From the NCBI RefSeq assembly GCF_027812955.1, contig NZ_JAPYZV010000001.1:62001-126000 (forward strand): a DNA stretch of 64,000 bases, read 5' to 3'. The first letter of the stretch is position 1; every line of letters begins with the position of its first letter. Positions 25,703 to 39,107 of the stretch are shown here, piece by piece. The position numbers and the translations under genes are program-made. The notes under the pieces were generated by a model. It ran no database searches, had not been told where the DNA came from, and saw only the letters and a list, made by a program, of their open reading frames with translations. Source of the stretch: Pedococcus sp. 5OH_020. Lineage in GTDB: Bacteria; Actinomycetota; Actinomycetes; Actinomycetales; Dermatophilaceae.

Positions 25703-25814
25703 CCGTGGACTCTAGCGCCGGACTGCGGCGTGAGATCTCCACGTGCGGTTCGCCTCTCGACCTGTCCGAGGCGTGGACGACGCGCCGTACGGCGTGCCCG
25801 AGGAGTGACCAACA

Positions 25815-25835
25815 CTTGCATCATTCCAGATCTGG
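25815..25835 (+). promoter_or_regulatory. Candidate peroxide-regulator operator/promoter of the fur-katA unit
   Basis: CTTGCATCATTCCAGATC followed by TGG, 18 bases before GTG 25853. It contains TTGCAT as a possible -35 and the perfect palindrome CCAGATCTGG. From memory, the CTTGAC-x-x-ATTCCAGA pattern resembles operators upstream of actinobacterial furA/catR genes; this needs comparison. Confidence 0.45.
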
Positions 25836-25852
25836 TGGTGGGGTCAGGGCTT

Positions 25853-26296
25853 GTGAGAGCACCCCTGCAGGACCGGCTGAGGTCCGCCGGCCTGCGTGTC
25901 ACGCGACCGCGCCTGACCACCCTGGAGGTCCTGGACGAGGCCCAGGCCCGGCAGGAGCACCTCCCGGTGGCCGATGTCGCCGGACGGGTCCGCGGCCTGC
26001 TGGGGTCGGTCTCCACGCAGGCGGTGTACGACTGCCTCGAGGCGCTCGCAGGCGCAGGCCTGGTGCGTCGGATCGAGCCGGCCGGTCATCCCGCCCGCTA
26101 CGAGAGCCGGGTCGGCGACAACCACCATCACCTCGTCTGCCGGGACTGCGGCGCGACCGTCGACGTGGACTGCGCCGTCGGTCACGCGCCCTGCCTCTCC
26201 CCGACGTCCGCCGAGGGCTTCCTCGTCGACGAGGCCGAGGTCGTGTACTGGGGCCGCTGCCCCGGCTGCGCCACCTCAGCCACCCTGACGCTCTGA
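25853..26296 (+). CDS. Fur-family peroxide regulator (CatR/FurA-like)
   Basis: 147 residues from GTG 25853; upstream codons in this frame are unlike Fur proteins. Residues 1-80 form the winged helix (LRSAGLRVTRPRLTTLEVL, SVSTQAVYDCLEAL). The metal region HHHLVCRDCG supplies His ligands and the first CxxC, and CPGCA the second. Placement before a catalase matches catR-catA of Streptomyces and furA-katG of mycobacteria, where the regulator represses itself and the catalase until oxidised by peroxide. Confidence 0.9.
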   Translation: MRAPLQDRLRSAGLRVTRPRLTTLEVLDEAQARQEHLPVADVAGRVRGLLGSVSTQAVYDCLEALAGAGLVRRIEPAGHPARYESRVGDNHHHLVCRDCGATVDVDCAVGHAPCLSPTSAEGFLVDEAEVVYWGRCPGCATSATLTL

Positions 26297-26340
26297 CCCA
26301 TGACCTGTGACCTATGACCACCGCACCGAAAGGGACAACC

Positions 26341-28008
26341 ATGACAGACGTAGCCAGCCAGGCCTCCGCGGCCACCGAGGAGGACCGTCCGGTCCTGACC
26401 AACCGCCAGGGCCACCCCATCTACGACAACCAGAACCAGCGCACCGTCGGGGCGCGGGGGCCGGCGACGCTGGAGAACTACCAGTTCCTGGAGAAGATCA
26501 GCCACTTCGACCGTGAGCGCATCCCCGAGCGGGTGGTGCACGCCCGCGGGGCCACGGCCTTCGGCTACTTCGAGGCGTACGGCGCCTGCGGCGACCAGCC
26601 GATCGCGGACCTGACCCGCGCCAAGCTGTTCCAGGAGAAGGGGAAGCGGACCGACCTGGCCATCCGGTTCTCGACGGTGGCCGGTGGCCGCGACTCCTCC
26701 GAGGTGGCTCGCGACCCGCGCGGCTTCGCCGTGAAGTTCTACACCGAGGACGGCAACTGGGACCTGGTCGGCAACAACCTGGGCGTCTTCTTCATCCGCG
26801 ACGCCATCAAGTTCCCGGACTTCATCCACTCCCAGAAGCCCGACCCGGTCAGCTTCTTCCGCCAGGACCCCAACCGGGCGTTCGACTTCATCAGCCAGAC
26901 GCCCGAGGCGATGCACATGGTGACGCTGGTGTTCAGCCCGCGCGGCATCCCGGCCAGCTACCGCACCCAGCAGGGCTTCGGGGTGAACACCTACAAGTGG
27001 GTGAACGCCCAGGGCGACACCAAGCTCGTGAAGTACCACTGGCTGCCCAAGCAGGGCGTGAAGTCCCTGACGGCAGAGGACGCGGCCAACATCCAGGCCG
27101 GCGAGCTGGGCTCGGCGACCAAGGACCTGTACGACGCCATCGGGGCCGGCGACTACCCGGAGTGGGAGCTCAACGTCCAGCTCATGGACGACCACGACCA
27201 CCCGGAGCTCGACTTCGACCCGCTGGACGACACGAAGGTCTGGCCCGAGGAGCTGTTCCCGCTCCACCCGGTGGGCCGCATGGTGCTGGACCGCGCACCG
27301 GAGAACTTCTTCGCCGAGAACGAGCAGATCGCCTTCGGCACCGGCGTGCTCGTCGACGGCCTGGACTTCTCGGACGACAAGATGCTGGTGGGTCGGACCT
27401 TCTCCTACAGCGACACCCAGCGCTACCGGGTGGGACCGAACTACCTCCAGCTGCCGGTGAACCAGGCGAAGAACGCCCGGGTGGCCACCAACCAGCGCGA
27501 CGGCCAGATGGCGTATGGCGTCGACCTGGGCGAGGGGCAGAACCCGCACGTCAACTACGAGCCGTCGATCCTCGGTGGCCTGCGTGAGGCGCAGTACCCG
27601 ACGCACGACGAGCAGGGCCCGGTGATCGAGGGCCGGCTGACCCGCAAGCGGATCCCGCGCACCAACGACTATGCCCAGGCGGGCGAGCGGTACCTGCTGT
27701 CCGAGCAGTGGGAGAAGGACGACCTGGTGGCCAACCTCGTCGGCGCCCTCGGCCAGTGCGACCGCCCCATCCAGGAGCGCATGGTGTGGCACCTCTTCCT
27801 GTGCGAGGACGAGCTGGGCCAGCGCGTGGGCGACGGTCTGGGCATCTCGGCCGACGACGTCCGCCACCTGGCACCGCTGCAGACGCAGACGTTGAACGAG
27901 GAGGAGCAGCAGCGGCTGTCGAACCTGGGCAAGAACGGGCCGCGCGACGTCTCCGGCCACGTGATGACGCACTGCGTGCCCAACGAGCGGGTCGTCGTCG
28001 AGCGCTGA
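26341..28008 (+). CDS. katA: Haem catalase
   Basis: 555 residues from ATG 26341, chosen over ATG 26314 because AAAGGGA lies just before it. The catalytic His67 ([12 protein letters not shown]), the Asn of [10 protein letters not shown] (145/146) and the haem-ligand Tyr in [14 protein letters not shown] are present. It splits hydrogen peroxide into water and oxygen. The C-terminal part after about residue 480 is longer than in the smallest catalases but lacks the separate domain of large-subunit types. It lies 44 bp downstream of the Fur-type regulator, so regulation by that protein is likely. Confidence 0.96.
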
Positions 28009-28033
28009 TCCCAGCAGCACCCCCGACGGCCAG

Positions 28034-28065
28034 GAGGGCCGGTCCGCCACGGTGGGCCGGCCCTC
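28034..28065 (+). terminator. Hairpin terminator after katA
   Basis: GAGGGCCGGTCC at 28034-28045 pairs with GGGCCGGCCCTC at 28054-28065 (12 bp with one G-U), loop of eight. No T tract follows, as is common in actinobacteria. Confidence 0.75.
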
Positions 28066-28113
28066 GCCCGCTAGCGTGCCAGCCGTTGACCCGCACTACC
28101 TGAAGGAGCCGGT

Positions 28114-28881
28114 ATGCCTGTTCTCGACAGCTTCACCCTCGACGGCAAGGTCGCCGTGGTGACCGGGGGAAACCGGGGCCTGGGCAGGGCCTTCGCGCAC
28201 GCCCTCGGGGAGGCCGGGGCCACGGTGGTGCTCCTGGCCCGCGACGCCACGAAGAACGGCGAGGTCGTCGCCGAGCTCCGAGACAAGGGGATCGACGCGA
28301 CGGCGTTCGAGGCAGACGTGGCGGACCGCGAGAGCCTCGCCCGCGCCGCGGACCGCGCGTACGCCGAGCTGCGCACGGTGGACGTCCTGGTGAACAACGC
28401 CGGCACCTGTATCCACCGACCTTCCCTCGAGGTGACCGAGCAGGAGTGGGCCGACGTGCTCGACGTCAACCTCAACGGCGTCTGGCACGGCTGCCAGCTC
28501 TTCGGCCGTCGCATGGTCGAGGCGGGTGAGGGCGTCATCGTCAACATCGGCTCCATGTCGGGCGACATCGTCAACCGCCCCCAGTGGCAGCCCGCCTACA
28601 ACGCCTCGAAGGCCGCCGTCCACCATCTGACGCGGTCGCTGGCCGCCGAGTGGGCGCCGTACGGCGTCCGCGTCAATGCCTTGGCGCCGGGCTACGTCCG
28701 GACCGAGATGACGCCCGTCGACCGACCCGAGTTCAGGAGCCGCTGGATCGACGACACCCCGCAGCAGCGCGCTGCGACGCCGGAGGAGATCGCGCCCTCG
28801 GTGGTGTTCCTCGCCAGCGCTGCCTCCTCGTACATGACCGGAGCGGTGCTGACGGTCGACGGCGGTTACACCGTCTTCTGA
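28114..28881 (+). CDS. Short-chain dehydrogenase/reductase
   Basis: 255 residues from ATG 28114, preceded by AAGGAG. It is a classical SDR: cofactor loop TGGNRGLG (17-24), NNAG (94-97), catalytic Ser in NIGSMSG, Tyr162 and Lys166 in YNASK, and the C-terminal MTGAVLTVDGGY. An acidic residue after the second strand is absent (LARDATK), which leans toward NADPH use. FabG-like or sugar/polyol dehydrogenase activities are all possible; neighbours do not settle the substrate. Confidence 0.92.
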   Translation: MPVLDSFTLDGKVAVVTGGNRGLGRAFAHALGEAGATVVLLARDATKNGEVVAELRDKGIDATAFEADVADRESLARAADRAYAELRTVDVLVNNAGTCIHRPSLEVTEQEWADVLDVNLNGVWHGCQLFGRRMVEAGEGVIVNIGSMSGDIVNRPQWQPAYNASKAAVHHLTRSLAAEWAPYGVRVNALAPGYVRTEMTPVDRPEFRSRWIDDTPQQRAATPEEIAPSVVFLASAASSYMTGAVLTVDGGYTVF

Positions 28882-29008
28882 CGTCACCAGCGGAAGGCGC
28901 GCAGGTGAGGGGTGCGCGGCGCGCGGGTCCGTGCCATCCTCCGAGGAGCCGTGGTTGTCGCTGCCGCTGAGGGCACCTCCGGGTCGGGTAGATCATGTGA
29001 CGAGGGGT

Positions 29009-30100
29009 ATGGGGGTGCCTGTGAGCGCTTCGCCGCCGGCGGACGCCGGGAGGCAGTCCGAGCCGCCGGCGGACGTGGCGGCGCTGATCCCCTTGGTGCG
29101 ACGGATCGTCGAGGCCCGGGTCGGGAACCACCCGGCGGCCGACGACCTGGTCCAGGAGACCCTGGTCCGCGTACTCGCCGCGGCCTCCCGCGTCGAGCCG
29201 GGCCTGCTGGAGCCGTACGCCATCGTGACCGCGCGCAACGTGATCGCCTCCCTGTGGCGCCAGGCGGACCGGCAGAGGCGCAACCAGCACCGGGTCGTGG
29301 ACCTGCGCCCCGCCGAGGAGCCGGACGAGCAGGTGCTCGCGGTCGAGGAGCAGTCGGCCGTGGCGCAGGCCCTGGCCCGGCTCTCGGACCGCGAGCGGGA
29401 GGCCCTGGTGGCCCACGAGGTGGCGGGGGAGGACACCCATGCCCTGGCGTCCCAGACCGGTTCCACGCCTGGGGCGGTGGCGGCCCAGCTCAACAGGTCT
29501 CGGGCGCGGATGCGCGTCGAGTATCTGCTGGCGCTGGAGAACGCGGACCCACCCACCGAGCGGTGCCGGCCGGTGCTGCTCGCGCTCTCCAGCGGCGACA
29601 GGCGGCGGCAGCGGGAGGTCGACGCGGCCAGGCACGTGCTGGAGTGCGACCTCTGCGCCCGGCTCAGCCAGCCGCTCATGGAGCGGGGGCAGCAGCGTGA
29701 CGACGAGGTCCACATCTCCGTCACCAGCGACGCGGACGTCGTCGCCGCGCGGCAGGGGGCTCGGGAGCTGGCGTCACGACTGGGCTTCCGGGCGACCGAC
29801 CTGACCATCCTCGCGACGGCGGTGTCCGAGGTCACCCGCAACATCGTCCGGTTCGCGGGTAGCGGAGAGGTGGTCGTGGAGCTCGTCGAGCGGCCGCGCC
29901 GAGGCGTCCGCGTGACCGCTCGGGACACCGGTCCGGGGATCCACGACGTCGAGCAGGCGCTCGCCGACGGCTACAGCACGAACGCAGGCCTGGGACTGGG
30001 CCTGCCGGGAGCACGGCGGCTGATGGACGAGTTCGCCGTCGTCTCGGAGCCCGGTCATGGCACCACGGTGACCATGACGAAATGGCTCCAGGAAGGATGA
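29009..30100 (+). CDS. Sigma factor / zinc anti-sigma-like / RsbT-type kinase fusion
   Basis: About 363 residues; GTG 29021 is another possible start. Residues 20-95 look like sigma region 2 (PLVRRIVEARVG, DDLVQETLVRVL) and 115-170 like region 4 (LSDREREALVAHEV, TPGAVAAQLNRSRARMR). Residues 180-215 contain AARHVLECDLCARL, the H-x3-C-x2-C pattern of zinc anti-sigma factors. Residues 235-360 are an RsbT-like GHKL ATPase with SEVTRNIVRF, DTGPGI and GLGLGLPGARRLMDEF. RsbT kinases phosphorylate RsbR/RsbS, and homologues of both follow directly (ATGA overlap at 30097). Confidence 0.85.
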   Translation: MGVPVSASPPADAGRQSEPPADVAALIPLVRRIVEARVGNHPAADDLVQETLVRVLAAASRVEPGLLEPYAIVTARNVIASLWRQADRQRRNQHRVVDLRPAEEPDEQVLAVEEQSAVAQALARLSDREREALVAHEVAGEDTHALASQTGSTPGAVAAQLNRSRARMRVEYLLALENADPPTERCRPVLLALSSGDRRRQREVDAARHVLECDLCARLSQPLMERGQQRDDEVHISVTSDADVVAARQGARELASRLGFRATDLTILATAVSEVTRNIVRFAGSGEVVVELVERPRRGVRVTARDTGPGIHDVEQALADGYSTNAGLGLGLPGARRLMDEFAVVSEPGHGTTVTMTKWLQEG

Positions 30101-30102
30101 CC

Positions 30103-31011
30103 ATGCAGCAGCAGGACGGTACCGACACCAGGGACGACGCGCCGGAGCGGCAGGACCCGGGCGAACAGGAGGAGCAGCTGCTTCCCCAGCTGGTCGCCCA
30201 CCTGCGCGAGCACCGCACCAGGCTGCGCCAGGAGTGGTCGAACCGCATCCAGGCGGCACATCTGCTCGAGGCCATGACGCCGCAGGAGATGGCCGCTGAG
30301 ACGACCTCCGTCTACGACAACTATGTCGAGGTCCTCGAGACCGGCAGCGTCGAGGCACTGCAGCACTACGCGCGCGACCTCTCGGAGCGCATCATCCCGC
30401 GAGGCGTCGAGACGCACGAGGTCGTGGGCATCGTCCTGCTGCTGCGCGACGTGCTGGCCCGGTCCCTGTTCGAGAAGTACCAGCAGGAGCTCGGCCTGCT
30501 CAACCGGGTCCTCGACGCCTACGAGCCGGCCGCCAACCGCATCGCGAACACGGTGGCGGTGAGCTTCGTCGAGGAACGGGAGAGAGTCATCCGCCAGCAG
30601 CAGGACGCCATCCGCGAGCTGTCCACCCCGGTGCTGCCGGTGCGCGAGCGGCTCCTCATCCTGCCCATCATCGGCGTGCTGGACAGCGAGCGGGCCCGCC
30701 AGCTCACCGAGCAGCTGCTCACGGGCATCCGCACGCACCGGGCCAAGGTCGTCGTCATCGACATCACCGGTGCTCCGGACGTCGACCAGACCGTCGCGAA
30801 CCACCTCGTCCAGACCGTCGACGCGTCACGGCTGATGGGTGCGAGCGTCATCATTACCGGACTGTCCCCGAAGATCGCCCAGACGCTCGTCACCATCGGC
30901 GTCGACCTCAGCAAGATGAACACGATCGGCGACCTTCAGGGCGGCCTCGAGGAGGCGGAGCGCCTGCTCGGGTACGCCGTGACGAGAGAGGAAGGTGCCA
31001 ACGGCCCGTGA
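30103..31011 (+). CDS. RsbR-like stressosome co-antagonist (STAS)
   Basis: 302 residues from ATG 30103, spaced six bases from GAAGG; ATG 30097, overlapping the previous stop, is the alternative. The N-terminal 170 residues are helical and variable, as in RsbR sensors. The STAS domain (about 185-290) has VVVIDITGAPDVDQTVANHLV, where the Thr residues correspond to the RsbR phosphorylation region, then GASVIITGLSP. It likely forms the stressosome shell with the RsbS-like product of the next gene and is a substrate of the fused RsbT-type kinase. Confidence 0.9.
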   Translation: MQQQDGTDTRDDAPERQDPGEQEEQLLPQLVAHLREHRTRLRQEWSNRIQAAHLLEAMTPQEMAAETTSVYDNYVEVLETGSVEALQHYARDLSERIIPRGVETHEVVGIVLLLRDVLARSLFEKYQQELGLLNRVLDAYEPAANRIANTVAVSFVEERERVIRQQQDAIRELSTPVLPVRERLLILPIIGVLDSERARQLTEQLLTGIRTHRAKVVVIDITGAPDVDQTVANHLVQTVDASRLMGASVIITGLSPKIAQTLVTIGVDLSKMNTIGDLQGGLEEAERLLGYAVTREEGANGP

Positions 31012-31418
31012 CGCCCGGACCGGCACTGGTCTCCATCCTGCGCCAGGGTGCCTACCTGATCGCCTCCGTCCACACTGCGCTCGACGACTCGCAGATGGTC
31101 CGGTTCCAGGACGACCTCATCGGGGAGATCGGCCGGGCTCGCTCCCGCGGCGTCATCATCGACGTCGCCGCCCTGGACGTCCTGGACTCGTTCGGCTCCA
31201 ACACGTTGCGCAGCATCGCCGAGATGGCGCGCCTGCGCGGCGCAGTCACCGTCATCGTCGGGATCCAGCCCGACGTCGCTCTCGCCATGGTGAAGCTTGG
31301 CATGGGCACCGGCTCGGTACCCACGGCGCTGGACCTCGAAGAGGGGCTGGAGTACCTCGACCGGCACGTGCAGCACTCGCCCGCGGCCAGTGCCCGGGGC
31401 GGAGAGCGCTCCCGGTGA
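31008..31418 (+). CDS. RsbS-like STAS anti-sigma antagonist
   Basis: 136 residues; GTG 31008 overlaps the RsbR-like stop (GTGA). It is a single STAS domain with VIIDVAALDVLDSFGSNTL, in which the Ser of LDSFGS is the expected phospho-acceptor, and VIVGIQPDVALAMVKLGM. Size and gene order (RsbR then RsbS) match stressosome operons. The 25-residue tail is Ala/Arg-rich. Confidence 0.92.
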   Translation: MTPGPALVSILRQGAYLIASVHTALDDSQMVRFQDDLIGEIGRARSRGVIIDVAALDVLDSFGSNTLRSIAEMARLRGAVTVIVGIQPDVALAMVKLGMGTGSVPTALDLEEGLEYLDRHVQHSPAASARGGERSR

Positions 31419-31702
31419 ACCTGGGCGACCTCGAGCTGGACTACCGCGCCGCCTTCCTGCGCTACCTACCCCGCCGCGAGGAGGTGGCCAGGGCGCGGGG
31501 GTACGACATCGGCCGCCAGGCTGTCGCGACAGGCGTGAGCATCCTCGACGTCGCCGCCATCCACCACGAGATCCTGCTCGAGGTCCTGCACGACACGCCA
31601 GCGGCGGAGGTCGACGAGATCACCGGAGCGGCGGCGGAGTTCCTCCAAGAGGTGCTCGCGCCATACGACATGACCCAGCGTGGCCTCCTCGAGGGAAGCT
31701 GA
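31415..31702 (+). CDS. Stand-alone RsbU N-terminal-like protein
   Basis: 95 residues; GTG 31415 overlaps the preceding stop (GTGA). The segment LDYRAAFLRYLPRREEVARA...GRQAVATGVSILDVAAIHHEIL matches the helical RsbT-binding domain at the N-terminus of RsbU phosphatases. No phosphatase domain follows. It could act as a binding partner that captures the RsbT-type kinase domain, or work with a separate PP2C such as the one at 35698. Confidence 0.8.
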   Translation: MNLGDLELDYRAAFLRYLPRREEVARARGYDIGRQAVATGVSILDVAAIHHEILLEVLHDTPAAEVDEITGAAAEFLQEVLAPYDMTQRGLLEGS

Positions 31703-31986
31703 GCGGGCCCGCAGCACCGCTCCCACCAGCACAGATGAGCCGCGATACTGGTTGGTAGGCGCGGACGCGTGCCGCTGGCTGACATGACGCGGAAGCTCAG
31801 GCCGGTCCGGCCCGGCTCACCCAGGACCCCGTGCGGTCGGGCCGTCACGTGGAGCAGACAGCCGCGTCATGTGGCTCGGGGGAAGGGATCTTCATCGGTG
31901 CAGGGCCGGGGAAGCCCGCCGCCGGGCCACACGTCCGTGAGGCGGTGCCGCGCTCCGCGTAGCCACCACGACAGAGGAGCAACGCA
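31703..31986. other. 284-bp intergenic region before the secreted protein
   Basis: No coding frame with actinobacterial codon use was found and no strong hairpin. It probably carries the end of the stressosome operon and the promoter of the gene at 31987. Confidence 0.5.
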
Positions 31987-32532
31987 ATGATGTTACGAAC
32001 CAAGATCGTCGGGACCGGAACCGCTGTGGTCGTCGCCGCAGCCCTGGGAGTCCTTCCCGGAGCCGCGGCCGCCAGCGCAGCCCCGCAGGCCGCCGCCCCT
32101 CGGGCAGTCGCCGCAGCCGTCCCCGCTGCCACCACCATCCCGGTCACCGGCACCCTGCCCAACGGGACGGCCTTCACCGGTGCGCTGAGCAACCTCACCA
32201 CCTCCGTGGTGAACGGCGTCCTGACGCTGTCGGGAACGATCACCGGCACCGGTCTGCCCGCCGCTGGCACGACCTTCACCGCGCCGATCCAGAACCTCGC
32301 TGTCGGCGCCAGCTGCACGATCCTGACGCTCGACCTCGGGCCGCTGCACCTGAACCTCCTCGGCCTGGTCATCGACCTTGCACCCGTCCACCTCAACATC
32401 ACGGCGGTGCCGGGGGCCGGCAACCTGCTCGGCAACCTGCTGTGCGCCGTGGCGCACCTGCTCGACGGCTCGTCGCCGCTCGGAGGCCTGTCAGCCCTGC
32501 TCAACCGGCTGCTCCTGGGGCTCGGTCTCTGA
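31987..32532 (+). CDS. Secreted hypothetical protein
   Basis: 181 residues from ATG 31987, seven bases after GAGGAG. A signal peptide with likely AxA cleavage near residue 30 precedes an Ala/Pro-rich stretch. A hydrophobic C-terminal domain follows, with LDLGPLHLNLLGLVIDL and GAGNLLGNLLCAVAHLLDG, containing two Cys that may form a disulphide. I recognise this arrangement from secreted actinobacterial proteins of unknown function. A strong hairpin terminator follows, so it is monocistronic. Confidence 0.82.
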   Translation: MMLRTKIVGTGTAVVVAAALGVLPGAAAASAAPQAAAPRAVAAAVPAATTIPVTGTLPNGTAFTGALSNLTTSVVNGVLTLSGTITGTGLPAAGTTFTAPIQNLAVGASCTILTLDLGPLHLNLLGLVIDLAPVHLNITAVPGAGNLLGNLLCAVAHLLDGSSPLGGLSALLNRLLLGLGL

Positions 32533-33963: not shown

Positions 33964-34545
33964 ATGCCCTACACAGCAGAGAAGCCGCCGCCGGCCAGGA
34001 CGAGCGAGGAGCTGAGGGCCACGATCCCGGGTTGGGGCGTCGACCTCGACCCGCGGGACCGGCCCTCCGTGCCGCGGGAACAGCCCAGCACCCACCTGAC
34101 CGGAGCGCACTGGGACTTCCCGGAGCGGCAACCTGAGAAGTGGCCCCGCGAGCGGTCCGTCGAGCACAAGTTCCTCACCCCGGTCTTCGGGACCGCCACC
34201 CCGCCCAGGGGGCTCTCCGGCGGCATCCGCAAGGCGGCATACCGCTACAGCGAGGGTCGCACGGCCCACTGGCTGCTCCTCGTGCTCGCCGACCGGGTCG
34301 ACGCCCAGGAGAGCCACCTGCGTTCCTTCCTCACCCTGCGGCCGGACAACCCCATCACGCAGACCGGGGTCCTGAGCGAGCTGCGGCACCACCCGATCAG
34401 GTCGCGCTTCGGGGTCAAGCGGACGGACCTGGTCCACCAGAGCCTGGACCCCGTCGTCGTCGCGGGTCCGTGGGTGCTCGCCGGCGCCGCCGTCTACGTC
34501 GTGGGCCGACGGGTGCTGCGCAGCCTCCGGGGGCTCATGCGCTGA
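33964..34545 (+). CDS. Conserved hypothetical protein next to the dehydrogenase
   Basis: 193 residues from ATG 33964, preceded by AGGAG. The N-terminal half is hydrophilic and Pro-rich. The middle (GGIRKAAYRYSEGRTAHWLLLVLADRVDAQES) is amphipathic, and residues near 160-180 (VVVAGPWVLAGAAVYVVGRR) form a likely C-terminal membrane segment. I do not recognise the family. It lies 17 bp after the dehydrogenase and its last 11 bases overlap the convergent MEDS-kinase gene. Confidence 0.75.
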   Translation: MPYTAEKPPPARTSEELRATIPGWGVDLDPRDRPSVPREQPSTHLTGAHWDFPERQPEKWPRERSVEHKFLTPVFGTATPPRGLSGGIRKAAYRYSEGRTAHWLLLVLADRVDAQESHLRSFLTLRPDNPITQTGVLSELRHHPIRSRFGVKRTDLVHQSLDPVVVAGPWVLAGAAVYVVGRRVLRSLRGLMR

Positions 34546-35569
34546 GACCGGGTGAGTCGGCGCCGGCGGAGCCGACGTCGAACGAGCCGACGTCGAACGA
34601 GCCGACGTCGAACAGGGCCCAGACCACCTTGCCGTCCGCGAAGGTGTCGCAGTCCCACCGGTCGGCGACGGCCTCGACGATCGCCAGCCCTCGTCCACCC
34701 ACCGCAGCGGGATCGGCGAGCTGACGACGTGCTGTGCCGGCGCCGGCGTCCGTGACGGCCACCAGCACAGAGGTGCCGGACCGCTCGAGGCGTACCTGGA
34801 AGGGGGAGCCGGCGTGGGTCACCGCGTTGGTGGCCAGCTCGGAGCAGACCAGGTTCGCGTCAGCGACGAGGTGCTGGACGCCCCAGGAGCGGAGCACCCT
34901 GGCGACGAAGCGGCGTACGGCCGGGACGGCCTCCGGCACGGGTAGGAACGTCTCCGTCCGCTGCGTCGCACCGAGCCCCCGGTGGCCCGGTCCGGCCGCG
35001 CGGTAGCTGCCCGGCGCGATGACCCGGGAGTGGCGCTCGCACACCTGTCGCAGTCTCGCCAGGCCTGCGGCCTCGAGGTGCTCGGTAGGGTAGCCGCAGA
35101 GCAGGGAGAAGCTGCGAGCGCGGGCGAGCTCGTTCCACAGCGACTCCAGCTGGACTGCGGCGGCGACGTTGCCGTCGCGCCAGAGCAGGCCGACCATCTC
35201 GCCGAAGACCCTGAGGCGTCGCCCGCCGGTCGCGGCGCGGTCCAGCACGGCGCAGACGTGTTCGGCGAACAGCGTGGCATCGGCGGAACCGTTGACGAGG
35301 AACCGGGAGAGCAGCTCCATGGCGTCCACCGCGACATACCGGCCAGAACGTCGCAGGATGACAAGATCCGCGCCCAGACGCCCCAGCGTGGCCTCGAGAG
35401 CGCCGCGATGCTCCGGTGTCGCCACGACCACGACTGCCTCCTGCTGCCGCAGACCGTCCACGACGTGCGCGACGATGGCGTCCTGCATCTCCACGTCGTC
35501 CTCGTAGAAGCACACGGCGTGGGCAGACAGTGACGTGAGGCGGACACTGGTCGTCACAGTTTCAACCAT
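34535..35569 (-). CDS. MEDS sensor with anti-sigma-type GHKL ATPase
   Basis: 344 residues from ATG 35569. Residues 15-170 match the MEDS/DcmR sensory domain (HAVCFYEDDVEMQDAIVAHVVDGL). Residues 210-325 are an RsbW/SpoIIAB-like ATPase (LVCSELATNAVTHAGSPFQV, VTDAGAGTARR, GRGLAIVEAVADRW). Such fusions bind and phosphorylate anti-sigma antagonists in response to unknown signals. The C-terminus ends in three FDVGS repeats encoded by a DNA tandem repeat. The PP2C phosphatase encoded next on the same strand is a natural partner. Confidence 0.87.
   Translation of the reverse strand: MVETVTTSVRLTSLSAHAVCFYEDDVEMQDAIVAHVVDGLRQQEAVVVVATPEHRGALEATLGRLGADLVILRRSGRYVAVDAMELLSRFLVNGSADATLFAEHVCAVLDRAATGGRRLRVFGEMVGLLWRDGNVAAAVQLESLWNELARARSFSLLCGYPTEHLEAAGLARLRQVCERHSRVIAPGSYRAAGPGHRGLGATQRTETFLPVPEAVPAVRRFVARVLRSWGVQHLVADANLVCSELATNAVTHAGSPFQVRLERSGTSVLVAVTDAGAGTARRQLADPAAVGGRGLAIVEAVADRWDCDTFADGKVVWALFDVGSFDVGSFDVGSAGADSPGLSA
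34569..34613 (-). repeat. 15-bp tandem repeat at the 3' end of the MEDS gene
   Basis: GAGCCGACGTCGAAC three times exactly (plus-strand reading), encoding FDVGS x3 on the minus strand. Confidence 0.95.
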
Positions 35570-35697: not shown

Positions 35698-37476
35698 TCA
35701 GCGCTCGGGGCCGTCGAGCCGCAGGCAGAGCGCCGCGACGTCGTCGTCACGCGTGGCGTCCCGCACCCGCGCGACGAGCTGGGCGAGAGCCACGTCGAGG
35801 TCCCCTTGGCGCAGCAGCGCCAGGGCCTCGAGCAGCCGCTGCTGCCCTACGTCGATGTCCTCGCCCCGCCGCTCGATGAGACCGTCGGTGAACACCAGCA
35901 GGGTGTCTCCCGGCCGGAACGGCACCACGTGCTCGCCACGCCGCTGAGGCACCACCCCGAGCGGGCTGCCGTCGGTGTTCTCGAGCTGCTCACCCGTCCC
36001 GTCCCGCCGCAGCAGTACCGGCGGCGGATGGCCGGCGTTGGTGACGGTGAGCAGGCCCTCGGAGGTGTCGGCCAGCAGGTATGCCAACGTCACGAGCTGC
36101 TCGCCGCCGTACTGCAGGAGCATCCGGTCGAGGCGGCCCACGACCACGCCCGGCGAGGGGTCCAGCGCCACGTACGCTCTGACCGCCGAACGCATCTGCG
36201 CCATGGCGGCTGCGGCAGCCACCCCGCGACCCATGACGTCCCCTACGAAGAGGGCCAGCCGACCGTCGTCCAGCGGGATGACGTCGTAGAAGTCGCCACC
36301 GATGTCGGTGCGGCCGGAGGGGCTGTAGAGCGCGGCGATGTCGCACCCCGGCACGCGAGGCATGTGGTCGGGCAGGACGGCGTGCTGGAGCCGGCGCGCG
36401 GCGGCAAGCGTCTCGCTGTGCAGCTCGGAGTTGTCGATGGCCATCGCACCCCGCTTGGCCAGCTCCTCCGCGAACGCGACGTCGTCGGCGGTGTAGGTGC
36501 GTCCCGACTCCGCAGCCACCCAGGTCATGACGCCGAGCAGCCGGTCCCGGGCGATGAGGGGAACGGTCAGCGAGCTGCGCAGGTTCAGGTCCCGGGCGAT
36601 CCGCAGGAGCTCTTCGTCCCGGGCGCCCGCGACCAGCATGTCGTCGGTGATCTCGGCGAGCAGCTCGCTCTTCCGCGTCCTCATGACGTTCCAGGGGCCG
36701 GCCGGCGCGTCCGGGTCACTGGGGTACCGCTCCGCCAGCTCCTGCGCGAGCTGGACCTTGGCGGGGTCGAAGTGGGCCACGGCCAACCGGTGCAGGCGTC
36801 CGTCACGCACGAGGTCGATGGCCGACCAGTCCGCGAAGGTGGGAACCGCCAGCCGGGCCACCTGGGCCAGGGTCGCCTCGTAGTCGAGGCTGCTGGCGAG
36901 CTCGGCGGAGGCGTCGGCCAGGAAGGTGAGCTTGGCCTGCCGCTCGGCCGCCTCCGCCTCGGCGCGGATGCGCACGAGGGCCTGGGCGCAGGTGTCGGCG
37001 AGGATCTCGAAGAAGTCCAGCTCGGCGTCGTCCAGGACCCGGTGCCCCGGGAAGGACAGGCCTATCGCGCCGATCGTGCCGCTCGACACGCTCAGCGGGA
37101 GACAGACGATGGACCGCTCGCCGCGGTCCGCCCACGGCATGTCGGGGTAGTGCTCGAGGATCTCCCGACGGCCGCTGAGCAACAGGCGCTCCCCGGAGCG
37201 GAGGACCTGGGTGGCCGGCGTCGCGACGGTCAAGGGGTAGCTCGAGTACTGCTGCTCGTCACCCTCCAGGCCGCCCCGCAGCCCCATCAGCCTCACCTGG
37301 TCACCGTCGCGCACGCTGAGGGACGCGATGGTGGCGCCCACGGCGTCTGCGCTCTCCTGCACCACGATCTTCGTCACGGCGTCGAGATCCGCTGCGCGCA
37401 CCAGCGACGCGGTGACCCGCGCGAGACGGGTCAGACGGTCGCCCAGCCCCTCGAAGGCCGCTGACTGCTGTGTCAC
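35698..37476 (-). CDS. GAF-domain PP2C (SpoIIE/RsbU-type) phosphatase
   Basis: 592 residues from GTG 37476 (GTG 37479 is adjacent). Two GAF-like domains (about 20-165 and 190-335) precede a PP2C phosphatase domain (about 370-590). The latter has ALYSPSGRTDIGGDFYDVIPLDDGR, VGDVMGRGVAAAAAMAQM and LLVFTDGLIERRGED, carrying the Asp metal ligands. These enzymes dephosphorylate STAS antagonists to free sigma factors. No membrane segment, so signals are cytosolic. No strong Shine-Dalgarno is seen. It may serve the stressosome proteins at 30103-31702 or the MEDS kinase next to it. Confidence 0.92.
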   Translation of the reverse strand: MTQQSAAFEGLGDRLTRLARVTASLVRAADLDAVTKIVVQESADAVGATIASLSVRDGDQVRLMGLRGGLEGDEQQYSSYPLTVATPATQVLRSGERLLLSGRREILEHYPDMPWADRGERSIVCLPLSVSSGTIGAIGLSFPGHRVLDDAELDFFEILADTCAQALVRIRAEAEAAERQAKLTFLADASAELASSLDYEATLAQVARLAVPTFADWSAIDLVRDGRLHRLAVAHFDPAKVQLAQELAERYPSDPDAPAGPWNVMRTRKSELLAEITDDMLVAGARDEELLRIARDLNLRSSLTVPLIARDRLLGVMTWVAAESGRTYTADDVAFAEELAKRGAMAIDNSELHSETLAAARRLQHAVLPDHMPRVPGCDIAALYSPSGRTDIGGDFYDVIPLDDGRLALFVGDVMGRGVAAAAAMAQMRSAVRAYVALDPSPGVVVGRLDRMLLQYGGEQLVTLAYLLADTSEGLLTVTNAGHPPPVLLRRDGTGEQLENTDGSPLGVVPQRRGEHVVPFRPGDTLLVFTDGLIERRGEDIDVGQQRLLEALALLRQGDLDVALAQLVARVRDATRDDDVAALCLRLDGPER

Positions 37477-37550
37477 CACGTCAGGATGCCAGGAGCAGGA
37501 CTCCAGGCAACCTCCAATCACGAAATGTCGCGACTTGCCTTGCGACGCTG

Positions 37551-39107
37551 CTAGACCCAGCTGGGGAACCACATCCGCATCGACCACTGCCCCTGGGGGA
37601 TCACCTGGGCGGTGTAGACCGGCCAGAAGAACGCGAAGAGGGCCAGCGTGAGCAGGCAGTATGCCCCCACGGCGAGCAGTCCGAGCTCTCGCCGTGTCGG
37701 CGAGTCGGTCTCCCTGCCGAGCCACAGGCCGAGGACGAACACCACGCCGAGCACCACCCAGGGCTCGAACGCCACCGTGTAGAAGGAGTAGATGGTGCGC
37801 TCCTCCAGGCTGAACCAGGGCAGGTACCCCCCGGCGAGCCCGGCCAGGATGCCGCCGGCCCGCCAGTCGCGGTGGAAGAGCCAGTAGTACAGCAGCACGA
37901 ACACGGCCACGGCACCCAGCCACCAGACCGACACCGTACCGATGGACGTGATGGCCTTCGAGCACTGCTCGACGACGCAGCCGTCCTGCCCTCGCTTCGG
38001 CCCCTCGTAGAAGAAGGACGTGGGGCGGCCCTGGACCACCCACGACCAGGGGTTCGTCCGGTACGGGTGGTTGTCGTGCAGGTTGACGTGGAAGGTGTAG
38101 ATCTCCTGGTGGTAGTGCCACAGCGACCGCAAGGCGTCGGGCACCCACGCTGCCTGTTTGGAGGGGTGCGCCGCCCCCCAGCCGCGGTCGTACCCCGCGG
38201 TGGAGCGGAACCACCCTGTCCAGGAGGCGACATACGTGACGAGGGCGGCGCCGACCATGACGGCGGCGGCCGGGAGCCCGTCTCGCACCACCATCGCGGT
38301 GACCCGGTGCCGGATCCCGACGGCGCGCCGCGCGCCAAGGTCCCACCAGACCGTCATGAGCCCGAAGGCGACGAGGAAGAACAGCCCCGACCACTTGGTG
38401 CCCGTGCACAGCCCCAGACAGACCCCCGCCACCCAGCGCCACGGTCGCACCCCCAGCGACGGGCCGAGCCCTGCCGCGCGCTGCCGCGCGGACAGCAGGG
38501 CGGCGCGCTCGGCGAGCAGCGCCCTCGAGCGGTCGCGGTCGATGAGGAGCGCGCAGAACGCCGCCAGCGCCCAGAACATGACGATGAGGTCCAGCAGCCC
38601 GGTGCGCGACTGGACGAAGTGGTGCCCCTCGAACGCGACGAGGAACGACGCGATGGCACCCAGCAACGAGGAGCCGAACATCCGGCGGGCGGCCCTGCCG
38701 ATCATCAGGATCGACAGGGTGCCCAGCACGCACACCGAGAACCGCCAGCCGAAGGAGGACGTCTGGCCGAAGAGCTGCTCACCGATGGCGATGAGCCACT
38801 TGCCCACCGGGGGGTGGACGACGAGGTCCCCCTCCGTCCCGAACACGTTGGGGGTGCCGGCGGTGAACAGCTCGTCCGGCTTCTTGAGCGTGTCGGGGAC
38901 CCGCATCTCCACGCGGTAGTCGAGCATCGAGACGCCCTGCTTGACGTAGTACGTCTCGTCGAACACGAGCTGGTGCGGTCGACCCAGGGACCAGAACCGC
39001 ATCCCGCCCCCCACGGCTGCGAAGAACAGCGGTCCGACCCAGCCCCACACCGTGTCGGTCGGCCTGAACCCGAGCAGCCGTGATCGCAGCAGCTCCACCG
39101 GGGTCAT
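37551..39107 (-). CDS. pmt: Protein O-mannosyltransferase
   Basis: 518 residues from ATG 39107; ATG 39116 is also possible. It is a GT39/PMT protein with about ten membrane helices. The catalytic loop FDETYYVKQGVSML carries the Asp-Glu pair and is followed by HPPVGKWLIAIGEQLFG. FEGHHFVQSRTGLLDLIVMFW and the late motif NPWSWVVQGRP are also family marks. It transfers mannose from polyprenyl-phosphate mannose to Ser/Thr of proteins during Sec export. The divergent pairing with rsmI is the usual actinobacterial order. Confidence 0.93.
   Translation of the reverse strand: MTPVELLRSRLLGFRPTDTVWGWVGPLFFAAVGGGMRFWSLGRPHQLVFDETYYVKQGVSMLDYRVEMRVPDTLKKPDELFTAGTPNVFGTEGDLVVHPPVGKWLIAIGEQLFGQTSSFGWRFSVCVLGTLSILMIGRAARRMFGSSLLGAIASFLVAFEGHHFVQSRTGLLDLIVMFWALAAFCALLIDRDRSRALLAERAALLSARQRAAGLGPSLGVRPWRWVAGVCLGLCTGTKWSGLFFLVAFGLMTVWWDLGARRAVGIRHRVTAMVVRDGLPAAAVMVGAALVTYVASWTGWFRSTAGYDRGWGAAHPSKQAAWVPDALRSLWHYHQEIYTFHVNLHDNHPYRTNPWSWVVQGRPTSFFYEGPKRGQDGCVVEQCSKAITSIGTVSVWWLGAVAVFVLLYYWLFHRDWRAGGILAGLAGGYLPWFSLEERTIYSFYTVAFEPWVVLGVVFVLGLWLGRETDSPTRRELGLLAVGAYCLLTLALFAFFWPVYTAQVIPQGQWSMRMWFPSWV

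Follow-up and report, generated by a model that had tools for sequence, protein, structure and literature searches.

The window analysed here is a stretch of 64,000 nucleotides of Pedococcus DNA, and the features of interest within it form an overlapping operon followed by a candidate promoter and a possible target gene (Table 1). The first gene of the operon, called sigT for short, occupies a single plus-strand open frame of 389 aa (28931-30100 in the window ORF list). The GTG at 29021 is its likely start, giving a product of 359 aa. This codon lies about 13 nt behind a TA, a spacing that by eye is common to most of 14 upstream regions. In most orthologues CGTANNNT stands at the position of the -10-like element (alignment also read by eye), and the sigT transcript is likely to be leaderless.

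Table 1. Features of the sigT operon and its downstream region, in window coordinates
Feature	Position	Strand	Basis
sigT, fusion gene: ECF sigma, zinc-type segment and RsbT-like kinase	29021..30100	+	frame from 28931
Weak -10-like element TATGGG, about 13 nt 5' of the start codon (putative)	29008..29013	+	by eye
Sigma-70 region 2	29078..29272	+	PF04542
Sigma-70 region 4	29357..29512	+	PF08281
C-x22-H-x3-C-x2-C segment (C182, H205, C209, C212)	29564..29656	+	orthologue alignment
RsbT-like GHKL kinase domain	29732..30082	+	PF13581
rsbR-like gene, alternative start 30082; STAS domain 30628-30906	30097..31011	+	domain match
rsbS-like gene; putative acceptor Ser61 at 31188-31190	31008..31418	+	domain match, chain alignment
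rsbU_N, bare RsbU_N domain gene, 95 aa, without phosphatase	31415..31702	+	PF08673, 8.5e-12, above cut-off
Divergent first-box copy (putative), CATGACGCGG on the + strand	31783..31792	-	
Candidate promoter of the fusion sigma, GCGTCATG-N17-TCTTCAT	31864..31895	+	pattern and matrix scans
Secreted-type protein, 181 aa, candidate target	31987..32532	+	gene call

The sigT product matches the Pfam families Sigma70_r2 (1.4e-11), Sigma70_r4_2 (3.6e-7) and HATPase_c_2 (1.9e-13), all above cut-off, and has no Pfam match to sigma region 3. The presence of regions 2 and 4 without region 3 is characteristic of ECF sigma factors, and the general ECF model of NCBIfam, TIGR02937, scores 71 bits against a cut-off of 42.9. 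In an AlphaFold2 model made from 14 orthologues (pLDDT 79.8), Foldseek matched the N-terminal half to ECF sigma chains and the C-terminal half to SpoIIAB and RsbW; the low pTM of 0.43 means that the packing of the domains is not given by this model. A preliminary description of this DNA had read an ECF-like sigma factor and an RsbT-type kinase in one frame and had named profile searches for the two sigma regions and structure prediction as checks; the profile matches, with both sigma regions in the N-terminal half, and the fold matches of the two halves agree with it.

Behind region 4, as in the ECF48, ECF52 and ECF53 groups, lies the zinc-type segment. Its four ligand positions, C182, H205, C209 and C212 in numbering from 29021, do not vary among the 14 aligned orthologues and are present at six more loci. 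It is also the best-conserved part of the protein, with a mean pairwise identity over the 14 rows of 0.717 (sigma regions 0.61, kinase 0.67). The zinc anti-sigma motif of the preliminary description therefore stands as an invariant ligand pattern but not as a profile match, since neither zf-HC2 nor any other Pfam zinc finger was found in the fusion protein (E<=1 for zf-HC2). The segment resembles an anti-sigma domain, and may mask the sigma domains in cis.

The kinase half retains its N and G boxes, with S269, E270, N274, D302, G304-G306, G325, G327, L328 and P329 invariant in 14 of 14 orthologues; we take these motifs to be RsbT-type. Its best NCBIfam matches are to anti-sigma F (SpoIIAB, 55 bits), the RsbA family (43) and RsbW (28), all below their own cut-offs, with no RsbT model among the 25 best matches listed, and its best PDB matches are likewise SpoIIAB and RsbW. 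The nearest relatives are stand-alone kinases, 48-61% identical, and 23 of 24 of these rows (19 distinct loci) have rsbR and rsbS in the locus. The fusion kinase is also encoded with rsbR and rsbS, as RsbT is, but the order differs in that the kinase comes first, and the single-domain form of RsbT is not kept, because sigma and zinc parts precede the kinase. In the kinase tree the 14 fused kinases form one group (89/80).

All operon junctions in the window are 4-nt overlaps. The overlap of sigT with rsbR- and rsbS-like genes had been noticed before, and to these can be added a third overlapping gene, rsbU_N, that was absent from the preliminary description. The RsbU_N orthologues are 95-138 aa long and lack the PP2C catalytic domain; in the three stand-alone-kinase modules scanned, RsbU_N is joined to PAS and SpoIIE-type PP2C domains. 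Its assignment to the family depends on the Pfam match, because Foldseek gave no match below E 0.09 (1w53 is a weak match at E 0.6, and the KaiA C-terminal domain outranks both 3zta and 1w53). Among 15 genomes searched, PF08673 has a single match, in the fusion operon, in each of the 13 fusion genomes with a match, and none in G004 and G481. Since the operon RsbU_N is their only RsbU_N match, no RsbU-type phosphatase was found in these 13 genomes. SpoIIE-type PP2C domains (E<=1e-10) number from 1 to 9 in 12 of the 15 genomes, and none was found in G893, G910 and G966, three of the 14 fusion genomes searched. The fusion operon contains no rsbV, rsbW or rsbX, and no RsbX gene was identified.

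Other genes in the vicinity include a SpoIIE-type PP2C domain (35716-36270, minus strand, in the frame 35698-38733) about 4 kb from the operon. Behind this gene is a 344-aa minus-strand gene (34535-35569), the C-terminal part of which looks by eye like an RsbW-type ATPase; the two could be a second partner-switching pair or supply a resetting phosphatase. On the 5' side of the operon (25730-28881, plus strand), genes resembling by eye a Fur-type regulator, a catalase and a short-chain dehydrogenase are found, and neighbour clustering at the other loci revealed no conserved link between them and the operon. That clustering, which was based on simple gene calls, recovered only the operon and small clusters; the simple caller missed true genes, including rsbU_N at several loci and the secreted-type gene of the window.

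Full-length fusions occur in 19 genomes from five families and two classes, and partial ones in two more. The genome draws overlapped, and the genome counter reached 1,526. The full fusion was found in 6 of 11 genomes of the genus, 5 of 147 of family f124, 1 of 8 of family f97 (G481), 5 genomes of family f24 (from a draw of 391) and 2 of 66 genomes of another class (f63); wider draws gave the fusion in 4 of 396 genomes of the phylum and 4 of 394 of the class. A contig search with the single window protein as query returned only three Caulobacter ECF genes. Each of the 19 orthologues is in one frame with no internal stop, which rules out a frameshift or two-gene artefact. The preliminary description had proposed a survey for the same architecture beside rsbR and rsbS, and had allowed that two normally separate genes might emerge; the survey instead yielded this conserved fusion in two classes, with split frames only at the G1153 locus, where the fusion extends over two frames (the genome is 83% complete).

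The downstream genes are conserved as well, with rsbR, rsbS and rsbU_N behind sigT at 19 of 21 loci. Among the initial 14 loci, 13 show this order (G481 ends inside rsbR), as do the five full f24 loci and G1153, where rsbU_N is cut by the contig end. At the G1186 locus (L125/L127), rsbU_N begins one base behind the sigT stop and is followed by a secreted-type gene. There, rsbR and rsbS do not lie between sigT and rsbU_N, and may lie elsewhere because the contig begins inside sigT. G004, of the same genus, has a kinase half alone (L051:5234-5773), and no rsbR or rsbS was seen at this locus. Since this kinase falls inside the fused group, next to the G006 kinase in the tree, and a copy of the promoter-like site described below lies just 5' of it, the G004 kinase half is best read as the remnant of a decayed fusion locus.

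The putative acceptor serine of RsbS, placed by alignment to the Ser-to-Ala position of chain 9o4r_a, is kept in all 19 fusion operons with data. It is likewise kept wherever a non-fusion row has an RsbS match, in 23 of 24 rows from 19 distinct loci. The conserved kinase motifs together with this serine argue that catalysis is used. The acceptor threonines of RsbR (T175 and T209 in Listeria numbering from the chain alignment) are a different matter. The T209-equivalent is Ser or Thr in none of the 19 fusion operons (13 Glu, 2 Ala, 2 Val, 1 Gln, 1 His), and is Ser in 15 of 19 distinct non-fusion loci; at the T175-equivalent, only some rows have Ser or Thr, and a Thr aligned with T241 is kept in all 13 rows compared. 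Because the fused proteins form one group, the loss at T209 may reflect one event or a few. Without Ser or Thr at this position, part of the known phosphorylation switch is missing, and a built-in phosphate mimic may stand there instead. In this regard, T209A and T241A each raise SigB-dependent transcription without stress, as described in the mutant results of PMC9237128.

Genes for secreted-type proteins of about 180 aa stand beside 9 of 21 fusion loci, at varying positions and orientations. Seven of these nine genes are preceded by a shared two-box site with a spacer of exactly 17 bases, and the site is degenerate at the other two (L046, L050). The window has a single CGTCAYG-N(14-20)-TCTTCA, at 31865, where 0.02 are expected. 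The stricter CGTCAYG-N17-TCTTC occurs 9 times in the 257,271 bases of the 21 fusion loci, compared to a mean of 0.07 in 30 first-order shuffles, and not at all in 250,961 bases of 35 other loci (some of them overlapping). It is also absent from 1.6 Mb of background, 400 kb each from two genomes with the fusion (G000, G001) and two without (G003, G005), so that this background does not discriminate a genome-wide association of site and fusion. The candidate promoter was seen only near fusion operons, with no copy in 800 kb elsewhere in two fusion genomes.

Because the pattern was derived from the secreted-type genes, independent support comes from further copies of the site. Locus L094 has three, before a PRC/DUF2382 gene (its YsnF/AvaK model is just below cut-off), a trehalose synthase gene (TIGR02455, 877 bits) and one unknown gene, and L087 has a near copy before a SnoaL_2 gene. 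A weight matrix built from nine sites, two of them from L094, scores the sites at 21 to 28.4, with a maximum of 18.8 in the 1.6-Mb background; it also gives matches of 20.0 inside rsbR at five loci, which probably reflect coding conservation. Copies of the first box in the opposite direction lie near forward sites in the window and at L047 (8942) and L048 (1855), as if in back-to-back promoters. Autoregulation was considered and rejected: the 14 aligned sigT upstream regions show by eye a TANNNT-type element and not the two-box site.

The sigma-zinc half has relatives of another kind. It is 40-60% identical in the window protein to that of 11 other proteins, and all seven of these relatives tested have a hydrophobic stretch behind it (19-residue mean 1.68-2.35). 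The hydropathy maximum is 0.97 in the window protein and at most 1.60 in the 14 fused orthologues, and the membrane helix and extracytoplasmic part of the ECF48/52/53 type are replaced in the fusion protein by the kinase. By the descriptions given in PMC8999054 and PMC5826349, the membrane-type relatives resemble ECF48, ECF52 and ECF53. In a sigma tree of 28 rows, three of them long outgroup rows, one branch (81/97, not starred) splits the 14 fused from the 11 membrane-type proteins. Thus, a single sigma-zinc cassette is found with either of two C-terminal controls: in one family a membrane-type part, in the other a stressosome kinase.

The promoter type is apparently shared between the two. 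The box GCGT(A/C)AT(G/C) lies divergently within 400 bases 5' of the sigma gene at 9 of the 11 membrane-type loci (L054-L060, L089-L091 and L096, of which L089 and L090 are close relatives), and is not found upstream at L059 and L060. As a rough control, GCGTAATG has no match in 1.6 Mb from genomes that belong to another group and are richer in G+C. A pattern including CGT at the matching distance has 6 sites in 108,655 bases of membrane-type loci, 5 in 269,272 bases of fusion loci, 3 in the 1.6-Mb background and none in 105,022 bases of stand-alone-kinase loci. Genes behind the membrane-type sites include those for DUF2382 (L055, L091), mechanosensitive-channel-type (L090) and GAF-ANTAR (L056) proteins, so that DUF2382 genes stand behind sites at both kinds of locus. 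The membrane-type proteins apparently serve a separate stress regulon. That the box is common to both kinds of locus, with targets partly in common, argues that the sigma half reads the two-box site; another regulator is possible.

Based on these data, we favor, with somewhat better than even confidence, a model in which the fusion protein is a stressosome-held ECF sigma factor, its activity governed by the RsbT-like kinase at its own C terminus, without a phosphatase cascade. The model draws on the architecture, the operon, the conserved kinase, zinc-ligand and RsbS serine residues, the sole RsbU_N in 13 genomes and the promoter-like site, all of them read from sequence; the binding, phosphorylation and transcription steps of the cycle are inferred. 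In the resting state, a stressosome core of RsbR and RsbS would hold the kinase domain and so keep the sigma domains off RNA polymerase, and the zinc segment may contribute to this masking. Stress sensed by the N-terminal domain of RsbR would lead the kinase to phosphorylate Ser61 of RsbS and leave. The freed protein would then dock through its kinase domain on RsbU_N, in place of the activation of an RsbU phosphatase; docking would most likely stabilize the released, active state, the main variant being a holding or inhibitory role for RsbU_N. Finally, the sigma domains would bring RNA polymerase to GCGTCAYG-N17-TCTTC promoters near the operon. The least secure parts of this explanation are the roles given to RsbU_N and the zinc segment.

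The preliminary description had suggested that the kinase, on leaving the stressosome, could itself act as the sigma factor, shortening the cascade to one step. The first proposal gains partial support from the conserved fusion, the rsbR/rsbS operon, the sole RsbU_N and the candidate promoter. The second agrees with the lack of any RsbU-type phosphatase match in 13 genomes, but it had overlooked RsbU_N; given a bare RsbU_N gene in the operon, the protein, once released, probably docks on a partner rather than acting in a single unaided step.

SpoIIAB and RsbW are the best fold and profile matches of the kinase half; this, and the presence of kinase and sigma on one chain, would also fit a protein in which the kinase clamps its own sigma half in cis, as RsbW and SpoIIAB do, and unphosphorylated RsbS is an RsbV-like antagonist. 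On this view, binding of the kinase to RsbS, and not its release, would leave the sigma factor active. This arrangement is unlikely, however, as the nearest sequences are the stand-alone kinases of rsbR-rsbS loci (48-61% identical), and the sigma factors known to be clamped are of the SigF/SigB type, with region 3, and not ECF. The operon, moreover, keeps a bare RsbU_N; this domain is where RsbT is known to dock, according to the binding results of PMC12143880.

A comparably small chance attaches to the zinc segment being the true anti-sigma switch, responding to redox, metal or proteolysis, with the RsbT part serving mainly to place the protein on the stressosome scaffold. The segment is the best-conserved part of the protein (0.717, against 0.61 for sigma and 0.67 for kinase in 14 rows) and is common to the membrane-type relatives, but a scaffold tether does not account well for kinase motifs invariant in 14 of 14 proteins and an RsbS serine kept in 19 of 19. 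Less probable still is that the protein is mainly an RsbT that activates a phosphatase elsewhere, the sigma half having a minor or lost function. Candidate phosphatases exist, in that 12 of 15 genomes searched have 1-9 SpoIIE-type PP2C domains, and yet three fusion genomes have none at E<=1e-10, the bare RsbU_N is the sole RsbU_N match in 13 fusion genomes, conservation in sigma regions 2 and 4 is close to that of the kinase, and a candidate promoter exists.

If the stressosome-held sigma model is correct, the RsbU, RsbV and RsbW steps are gone and transcription could serve as a direct readout of stressosome release; to our knowledge, this would be the shortest known link from stressosome to RNA polymerase. 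We consider it somewhat more likely than not that the stressosome shell here would store and discharge a sigma factor, that a former phosphatase would be a non-enzymatic docking protein, and that a dedicated promoter type would be common to membrane-tethered sister proteins. The proposed promoters are open to test. A search of mostly open literature gave no sigma factor-RsbT fusion, in line with the earlier remark that no system of this form has been described; each part is known, and no account was found of these parts joined directly, with a bare docking domain.

Three proteins, RsbU, RsbV and RsbW, link the stressosome kinase RsbT to the sigma factor SigB in Bacillus. The fusion system shares with the Bacillus and Listeria stressosomes the RsbR/RsbS-like STAS proteins, the RsbT-like kinase, RsbU_N and the RsbS serine. 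It differs in having an ECF-type sigma factor on the same chain as the kinase, an RsbU cut to its N-terminal domain, an operon that lacks rsbV, rsbW and rsbX, and an RsbR with no Ser or Thr at the T209-equivalent. RsbT binds RsbU via RsbU_N together with the linker, in the account of PMC12143880, and other stressosome outputs described there and in PMC9237108 have RsbU_N joined to GGDEF or histidine kinase domains. As in those systems, the output of the RsbRST module is swapped by modular fusion; whereas they carry the output on RsbU_N, the fusion system carries it on the kinase and leaves RsbU_N bare.

Among ECF sigma factors, ECF41, ECF42 and ECF238 have C-terminal extensions that are SnoaL-like, TPR or cysteine-rich (PMC8999054). 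The proposed control of sigma by a C-terminal domain in cis is similar, but the extension here is a GHKL kinase, which sets the fusion apart by the descriptions in that source; the sections considered here name no GHKL kinase extension. ECF283, a Nocardioides protein listed there under phosphorylation, is one numbered group to check as a possible home for the fusion. ECF48, ECF52 and ECF53 have an ECF sigma with a fused zinc anti-sigma domain and a membrane helix (PMC8999054, section 3.5; PMC5826349), and for these groups the zinc segment has been proposed as a redox, metal or proteolysis switch. The fusion protein likewise has sigma and then a zinc-type segment on one chain, but instead of a membrane-type hydrophobic stretch and an extracellular domain it has a cytoplasmic kinase. 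With one sigma-zinc cassette under two C-terminal controls and the promoter type apparently kept, the two families would provide a clean case of regulatory-module exchange.
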